From an uncultured delta proteobacterium (GTDB lineage Bacteria > Desulfobacterota > Syntrophia > Syntrophales > UBA8958): a stretch of 64,000 bases of DNA. Positions 50,491-52,377 of this stretch are shown one piece after another (the stretch's first letter is position 1; each line of letters begins with the position of its first letter). The translations under genes were made by a program, and so were the position numbers. The notes under the pieces are model-generated. The model ran no database searches and had not been told where the DNA came from. It saw only the letters and a program-made list of their open reading frames with translations. The stretch covers positions 1-64,000 of the forward strand of contig CAISJV010000019.1 of assembly GCA_903885795.1 (NCBI GenBank). Direction: 5' to 3'.

Positions 50491-50976
50491 ATGGTTACGG
50501 CAAATATGCTGAAAGAATTCAATTTTTTTAAGGATTTTACGAATGAGCAATTAGAGAGACTGTCCTCCATCGCCACAGAGGAGACCTACGCAGCAGGAAG
50601 CCAGATGTATAAAAAGGGTGATCCGGCGCGAAGCCTTTACATCCTCCTGGAGGGGAAAGTGGTCATGTCCCTCGAATCATACCTGGGACCACACCGGCCG
50701 CCGATGCAGGTGACGGTGGATACCATCGCCCGGGGAGAAACCATGGGTTGGTCCGCCGTCGTTGAGCCTTACATCTTTACCCTGGGGGCTTTATGTATTG
50801 ACAACACCAGGCTCTTTGCCCTAGATGCGGCAAAAATGCGTGGTTTGATGGATGAAGACTGTGACCTGGGATACAAAGTGATGAAGGCCATCGCCAAGAC
50901 CATTGCCTCCCGCCTTAGCCATACGCGCATTATTCTGGTGGGGGAAAGAGGCCTGTCACACCTGACGGAATACTGA
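50491..50976 (+). CDS. Cyclic nucleotide-binding (CRP-like) domain protein
   Basis: A 161-residue protein with one cNMP-binding beta-roll (FFKDFTNEQLERLSSIATEE, YKKGDPARSLYILLEGKVVM, IARGETMGWSAVV) and a C-terminal helix, but no DNA-binding domain. The phosphate-binding cassette is not canonical (GETMGWSAV rather than GE..RAA), so the ligand may not be cAMP. The ribosome site GAAGGAGGGG is strong. It precedes the Uxx-star gene by 15 bases, so the two are probably co-transcribed, perhaps with a redox theme. Confidence 0.85.
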   Translation: MVTANMLKEFNFFKDFTNEQLERLSSIATEETYAAGSQMYKKGDPARSLYILLEGKVVMSLESYLGPHRPPMQVTVDTIARGETMGWSAVVEPYIFTLGALCIDNTRLFALDAAKMRGLMDEDCDLGYKVMKAIAKTIASRLSHTRIILVGERGLSHLTEY

Positions 50977-50991
50977 AAGGCAGGTGCACAG

Positions 50992-51207
50992 ATGGAAAGC
51001 AAGGTCCTGATTTACGGCAAAGGCGGTTGTCCATACACAGACCAGGCCAGGTCGGCCTATGGGAACCGAGCGGTCTATGTGGATGTGAAAAAGGACGCCT
51101 CCGGGCTTCAGGAGATGTTGAGGCTTTCCGGGGGGAAGCGTCAGGTCCCCGTCATCGTGGAGGGGGAAAAGGTAACCGTCGGTTACGGCGGCACGTGAGG
51201 CGTATAA
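50992..51207 (+). CDS. Uxx-star family glutaredoxin-like selenoprotein (TGA read as Sec)
   Basis: A small thioredoxin-fold protein with active site GGCPYT (residues 12-17), a VPVI cis-Pro strand and a GYGGT end. An ordinary reading stops at TGA 51196-51198. Reading on gives Sec-Gly-Val then TAA (51205-51207), exactly the U-x-x-stop ending that names the Uxx-star (seleno)protein family as I recall it. A hairpin CCCATC-GTT-GATGGG begins 12 bases after the TGA, with G first in the loop, fitting bacterial SECIS rules. The full product is 71 residues. Function is probably thiol/selenol redox chemistry. The genome must carry selA, selB, selC and selD for this to hold; they are not in the window. 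Confidence 0.8.
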
Positions 51208-51227
51208 AGACCCATCGTTGATGGGCC
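51196..51227 (+). promoter_or_regulatory. Predicted bacterial SECIS element
   Basis: TGA (51196-51198), a 12-base spacer, then CCCATC (51211-51216), loop GTT and GATGGG (51220-51225). Stem length, distance and the loop G agree with bSECIS constraints. It would bind SelB and direct Sec insertion. Confidence 0.65.
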
Positions 51228-51269
51228 ACCACCAACCGGCAACATTTGACCATTCAGGGGGCAATTTGC

Positions 51270-51737
51270 ATGAAAAACAAGAGTCTGGAGACGATTCTGG
51301 GAAAGGCCATCAGGAACGAGGAAGAAGCCTTCCGGTTTTACATGGACCTCTACAACACCGTTGAAGACAAGGTCGCCAAGAATACGCTGGTTTTTTTGGC
51401 AGATGAAGAAAAAAAACACCGGGACTATCTTATCAAATATCGTGACGGCGTTTATCCGGAAAATGCCATGACCGTCTCGGAAGAAACGACAGCCGCAATC
51501 AAGGAATTCGCGGAAAACCCTGGCATCAAGAAAACATCGCAGGCCAAGGATGTTTTTCTCGCGGCTGCCGATCGGGAACTCATCGCCTACAACTTCTACA
51601 AGAAGCTCGCCGACATCCATCCCTCAGGGGAGGTCAGGGAACTCCTTTTGCGTATGGCCCAGGAGGAACTCAAGCACAAGGAGAAGATGGAATATCTATA
51701 CGACAATACGGCGTTTCCCCAAACAGCGGGGGGATGA
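51270..51737 (+). CDS. Ferritin-like / rubrerythrin-type diiron protein
   Basis: A 155-residue four-helix protein with two ExnExxH sets: EEEAFRFY with DEEKKHRDYL, and DRELIAYNFY with QEELKHKEKM, giving six candidate diiron ligands. It lacks the C-terminal rubredoxin domain of true rubrerythrin. Family members remove peroxide or handle iron in anaerobes. ATG 51270 is chosen for its CAGGGGG site. It lies just after the Uxx-star selenoprotein, consistent with an oxidative-stress group. Confidence 0.9.
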   Translation: MKNKSLETILGKAIRNEEEAFRFYMDLYNTVEDKVAKNTLVFLADEEKKHRDYLIKYRDGVYPENAMTVSEETTAAIKEFAENPGIKKTSQAKDVFLAAADRELIAYNFYKKLADIHPSGEVRELLLRMAQEELKHKEKMEYLYDNTAFPQTAGG

Positions 51738-51828: not shown

Positions 51829-52377
51829 ATGAAAACCCTTGTCCCTACTAAAGTTTTTTTCACCAAAGGGGTTGGCACCCATAAGGATGAGCTTCATTCT
51901 TTTGAACGGGCGCTCCGGGATGCGGGCATTGAAAAGTGCAATCTCGTTCAGGTCTCCAGTATTTTTCCTCCGGGCGCAAAAATGATCTCCCGGGCCCAGG
52001 GACTGCCGATGCTTGTCCCCGGAGCGATCACTTTCTGCGTCATGAGCAGGGCCTGCAGCAATGAACCCAAGCGTCTTCTCGCCGCCTCCGTCGGTTGCGC
52101 CATCCCGGCCGATAAGACATCGTATGGTTATATCAGTGAACATCACGCCTTCGGCCAGACGGAAAAACAGGCCGGAGAATATGCCGAAGACCTGGCCGCC
52201 GCCATGCTCGCTTCGACTCTAGGCATTGATTTCAACGTCGACGAAAGCTGGGACGAAAAGAAGGAAATCTTCAAGATTAGCGGCCAGATCATTCGTACCC
52301 GCAATGTAACTCAGTCATCCATCGCCAAAAACGATGGCTACACCACCGTAGTCGCTGCCGCCGTTTTCGTCTTCTGA
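51829..52377 (+). CDS. pdaD: Pyruvoyl-dependent arginine decarboxylase
   Basis: A 182-residue proenzyme that cleaves itself in VSSIFPP between the two serines, so the second becomes the pyruvoyl cofactor. Arginine is then converted to agmatine and CO2. Family marks: [78 protein letters not shown] 51829 is chosen because AAAGGAGGGG lies 7 bases before it; an upstream GTG would place the ribosome site inside the gene. The product feeds polyamine synthesis. It appears monocistronic. Confidence 0.93.

Follow-up and report, generated by a model that had tools for sequence, protein, structure and literature searches.

A UXX-star family 1 glutaredoxin-like gene with a probable C-terminal selenocysteine and a putative SECIS hairpin beyond its stop codon in a Syntrophales genome

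A short glutaredoxin-like reading frame in a Syntrophales contig (the stretch analysed, 64,000 nucleotides, is called the window) raises the question of where its protein ends. The frame opens with an ATG at 50992, has CPYT at codons 13-16, and runs through GYGGT to a TGA, at which standard gene calling closes a 68-aa ORF. The TGA is followed by GGC, GTA, and TAA, giving the layout CPYT...GYGGT-Sec-Gly-Val-stop if the TGA is read through. The original prediction treated the gene as an overlooked Uxx-star selenoprotein, shortened by three residues in standard calling and served by a SECIS-like hairpin downstream. Each of the named motifs and codons is present where it had been placed, and the frame read through the TGA has 71 residues against the 68 of the called ORF (Table 1). 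We consider it likely that the locus encodes a 71-residue UXX-star family 1 selenoprotein in which the hairpin directs selenocysteine (Sec) to position 69 and Cys13 and Sec69 form a redox couple.

Table 1. Features of the locus, in window coordinates
Feature	Position	Strand	Basis
Cyclic-nucleotide-binding-domain protein, 161 aa, upstream operon partner	50491..50976	+	PF00027
UXX-star family 1 (seleno)glutaredoxin-like gene, 71 aa, TAA included	50992..51207	+	NF041114/NF041212 scores, homologues
Codon 13, TGT (Cys) of CPYT	51028..51030	+	TGA (Sec) in 76/84 homologues
Probable first-SECIS relic AGGCC[AGGTC]GGCCT past codon 13, 5/5 paired	51044..51058	+	Hairpin comparison
In-frame TGA, read as Sec69 (predicted)	51196..51198	+	Homologues keep TGA-Gly-Val-stop, with silent third-base variation
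True stop TAA	51205..51207	+	Same site in homologues: TAA 39, TGA 34, TAG 11 (n=84)
Putative bacterial SECIS hairpin CCCATC[GTT]GATGGG, wholly 3' of the stop	51211..51225	+	18-nt spacing, G-loop, covarying stem (84 homologues)
Rubrerythrin-like (ferritin superfamily) protein, downstream	51270..51737	+	PF02915; in 14/80 loci
Pyruvoyl-dependent arginine decarboxylase	51829..52377	+	NF009064, TIGR00286, PF01862

Family membership

With the TGA read as Sec, the protein scored 111 bits against NF041114 ("UXX-star selenoprotein family 1", an equivalog model with a curated cut-off of 72), and the match spanned positions 1-70 of 70. The broader model NF041212 gave 85 bits against a cut-off of 66. The protein scored under the cut-offs of NF041211, NF047338, and NF045501, the models for UXX-star families 2 and 3 and the HUGP/GUXX-star fusion, with which it shares a homologous domain and, going by their names, the UXX* ending. 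The series UGA-GGC-GTA-TAA puts Sec third from the C-terminus, and Cys13 in CPYT conforms to the first-site pattern U/C-P-[YFH]-T. The Uxx-star assignment is thus confirmed, with the gene a genuine member of family 1, and the annotation is settled at 71 residues with a C-terminal Sec, not 68. Members above the NF041114 cut-off occur in 51 of the 198 genomes sampled from the same phylum; viral contigs yielded no relatives.

The gene is of a kind already catalogued: very small selenoproteins resembling glutaredoxin form a known family. PMC13188914 lists the family as 'distant Grx-like protein 1', with a UxxT first site and two Sec, and credits Zhang and Gladyshev 2008; the double-Sec form was therefore already known. 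The description of the gene as overlooked consequently holds for simple gene callers that ignore Sec, but not for the family, which has curated NCBIfam models in addition to that entry. The earlier reading also missed that two Sec (UPYT plus UXX*) are usual in the family. The window protein shares with the catalogued form its size, glutaredoxin domain, Sec third from the end, and downstream SECIS, but has CxxT and a single Sec in place of UxxT and two. Two Sec are not demanded by the NF041114 model, and several other sequences above its cut-off likewise contain just one in-frame TGA.

Within the order, some longer relatives differ from the window protein by an extra stretch ahead of GGTU. Three same-genus loci (L045, L049, and L050) encode a longer paralogue, GTDTUPFC...LFGGTUPV, in which more residues follow the C-terminal Sec; no copy of this paralogue was found in the genome that contains the window.

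The C-terminal UGA and the hairpin beyond the stop

The genome, 100% complete at 4.0 Mb in 95 contigs, has Syntrophus and other metagenome genomes of Syntrophaceae as its closest named relatives. It was searched for the Sec-decoding machinery on whose presence the original prediction had staked itself. Both Infernal and ARAGORN detected a tRNA-Sec, and selB, selA, and selD were found with 382, 603, and 392 bits, respectively, the full set (tRNA-Sec, SelA, SelB, and SelD) by which a Sec-decoding organism is recognized. The selD gene is itself a Sec-UGA gene, with an in-frame TGA in GSGUACK.

Relatives were drawn from 60 genomes and 80 named contigs, and 84 distinct family 1 members were compared. 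These 84 had been chosen for a C-terminal Sec with a stop two codons on; in the unselected list of 80 loci, nearly all share the U-G-V-stop ending, so homologues that consistently end at Thr, which would have spoken against the prediction, did not appear. The UGA is followed by Gly in 81 and Val in 80 of the 84, each with any third base, and then by TAA, TGA, or TAG. Entropy past the UGA is 1.8 bits at third bases and 0-0.3 at first and second positions. Drift confined to third bases argues that the codons past the UGA are translated. Cys was not found at the C-terminal site in any of the 80 unselected loci. The comparison supports the reading of the UGA as selenocysteine.

The hairpin has exactly the form predicted for it: a stem of 6 bp (51211-51216 paired with 51220-51225) closed by the loop GTT (51217-51219), twelve bases past the TGA (51199-51210), with 18 nt between UGA and loop. 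It conforms to the bacterial SECIS model of a review (G within the first two loop places, 16-37 nt, MFE <= -7.5), with a fold of -8.2 kcal/mol for 51205-51240, and to this extent the claim that it follows bacterial SECIS rules is borne out. When the window's own sequence downstream was dinucleotide-shuffled, 1.4% of the shuffles gave a G-loop stem equally good. The 50-nt fold of the single sequence from the UGA favours another pairing (z about 0), and an Rfam scan of 50900-51400 returned zero matches at E up to 1. We also considered a terminator, and rejected it; the hairpin has no T-run and is absent from the terminator scan list.

Among the homologues, 72 of 84 have a G-loop hairpin scoring at least 5, compared to 4.7% of shuffled controls; a few have weak hairpins. 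The loop lies 16-22 nt from the UGA, in most cases 17-19, and GTT, GGT, GGC, and GTG are its most frequent sequences. Five or more Watson-Crick pairs form in 78 homologues, which between them use 27 different 5-bp stems; all four pair types occur at several stem positions. Since the stop codon precedes the hairpin, this covariation is not explicable by coding constraint, and its freedom points to a bacterial SECIS lying wholly past the stop codon. Judging from these alignments, comparison rather than energy alone marks out the hairpin, and SelB would be the factor that recognizes it. Hairpins so unconstrained by coding would expose the bare bacterial SECIS rule through their covariation: a short stem, a G[G/T]N loop, and a distance of 16-22 nt.

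Fold, proposed chemistry, and the first site

The AlphaFold model (pLDDT 96; alignment of 72 sequences) has the order strand-helix-strand-helix-strand-strand, and the last glutaredoxin helix is absent. Residues 4-67 of the model align with glutaredoxins and NrdH (Z about 9, rmsd about 2); the thioredoxin fold and active-site position are common to cGrx1 (7c12), cGrx2 (4tr0), E. coli Grx3 (3grx), and NrdH (1h75). In contrast to selenoglutaredoxins and classical glutaredoxins, the window protein stops at the Gly-Gly turn, gains a C-terminal Sec, and has no second Cys in its motif. Fold and motif together make it a candidate for glutaredoxin activity, which consists in GSH-dependent thiol-disulfide exchange.

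The only redox residues of the window protein are 13 and 69, and exactly two Cys/Sec are present in 83 of the 84 proteins. Since Cys13 is the only redox residue besides Sec69, the likeliest chemistry, and the simplest mechanism, would be a Cys13-Sec69 pair. On the preferred reading, the ribosome would decode the UGA as Sec under the direction of the hairpin, SelB, and Sec-tRNA, add Gly and Val, and terminate at the TAA. The product would be a glutaredoxin fold truncated at the Gly-Gly turn, in which Cys13 may attack a substrate such as a disulfide or a glutathione adduct, which Sec69, placed on the C-terminal tail, may then resolve as a selenenylsulfide. Most relatives have Sec at both positions; here Cys has taken the place of Sec13, probably recently.

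The upstream partner, in which no DNA-binding domain was detected, ends 15 nt before the ATG of the selenoprotein gene. In 21 of 80 loci, mostly from Syntrophaceae or unplaced Deltaproteobacteria where the organism is named, the selenoprotein gene immediately follows one for a cyclic-nucleotide-binding-domain protein. The arginine decarboxylase is found at most 3 kb downstream in 20 of 80. No universal partner gene was found, and outside the Syntrophales both flanks are heterogeneous. This arrangement suggests a general reductant that in Syntrophales sits within an operon of oxygen- or peroxide-defence flavour.

The main rival to the redox pair is metal binding: the same selenoprotein, with Cys13 and Sec69 (both of them Sec in relatives) forming a metal or metalloid site. 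PMC13188914 proposes a metal-ligand role for the UXX-star Sec, and Cys, although accepted at site 13, never stands in for the C-terminal Sec here. However, the glutaredoxin fold keeps its VPV and Gly-Gly elements, and the operon neighbours in Syntrophales are rubrerythrin-like and cNMP-binding proteins, not metal-resistance genes (elsewhere the neighbours vary). We regard a metal site as unlikely.

At codon 13, the 84 homologues divide into 76 with Sec and eight with Cys. Members with TGA13 have a hairpin of their own, typically AGGCC[AGGTC]GGCCT, with its loop 18 nt away and a mean of 4.9 of 5 pairs. On a protein tree with site 13 masked, the site changed between Sec and Cys at least four times. 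The window gene falls in a Cys13 clade with two same-genus relatives, L084/L014 and L085/L013; two key papers aside, we found no description of this clade's Cys13 variant in the literature. On this comparison the CPYT Cys is a derived substitute for a second Sec, a point that the original prediction missed. The first hairpin of the window gene is still fully paired, whereas some other Cys13 forms have lost the hairpin or its loop; the replacement is therefore probably recent, which is suggestive only, as the hairpin region is also protein-coding. Comparison of the window gene with its Sec13 relative L086 (92% identical) offers a close pair for testing the contribution of the first Sec.

The leftover first SECIS, together with a nonsense codon in the same-genus copy L087/L054, could also fit a decaying copy that is heading to loss instead of a working Cys variant. 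Against this, the clade's three Cys13 genes have protein products that are 99% identical, their C-terminal Sec, SECIS, and operon are intact, and site 13 has changed at least four times across the family; we consider decay very improbable. Still less credible, to the point that we discount it, is an ordinary stop at the TGA with a protein ending at Thr68 and the hairpin a terminator or a chance structure, a reading that has the 68-aa ORF of standard calling and the unremarkable single-sequence fold in its favour but conflicts with the conserved Gly-Val-stop and its silent third positions, the G-loop hairpin that covaries, keeps SECIS spacing, and lacks a T-run, the occurrence in 34 of the 84 homologues of a second UGA at the site that is TAA or TAG in the rest (as a true stop predicts), and the full Sec machinery of the genome.

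Endings with two UGA codons

In those 34 members, 6 nt separate the Sec UGA from the stop UGA, and the second UGA is about 9 nt from the loop, under the 16-nt minimum of the SECIS model. From the alignment, the second UGA probably acts as a stop, because the remaining 50 members have TAA or TAG there. We give roughly even chances to a broader proposal: the catalytic residue that cannot be replaced is the C-terminal Sec, the classical glutaredoxin site is secondary and repeatedly swaps Sec for Cys, and the non-coding SECIS separates Sec and stop UGAs only 6 nt apart in about 40% of members. If true, the family provides a natural gauge of how short the UGA-to-SECIS distance can be. Its UGA-x-x-UGA members serve as natural controls for the way in which SelB discriminates Sec from stop.

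Three homologues depart from the common pattern. In L087:6001-6213 (= L054), from a Syntrophus aciditrophicus MAG of the same genus, a stop takes the place of the Tyr in GYGG, and UGV is not followed by one; this is either a broken gene or an assembly error. The Nitrospirae homologue L131:5113-5325, on a low-coverage contig, has TAA in place of TGA at codon 13 (GGG-TAA-CCC), and its first SECIS loop has AGA where most have AGG; an error, decay, or an unusual Sec codon could account for the TAA. In the contig-edge homologue L123:5-214, TGG replaces the C-terminal TGA within a G run, through either a sequencing error or loss of Sec.
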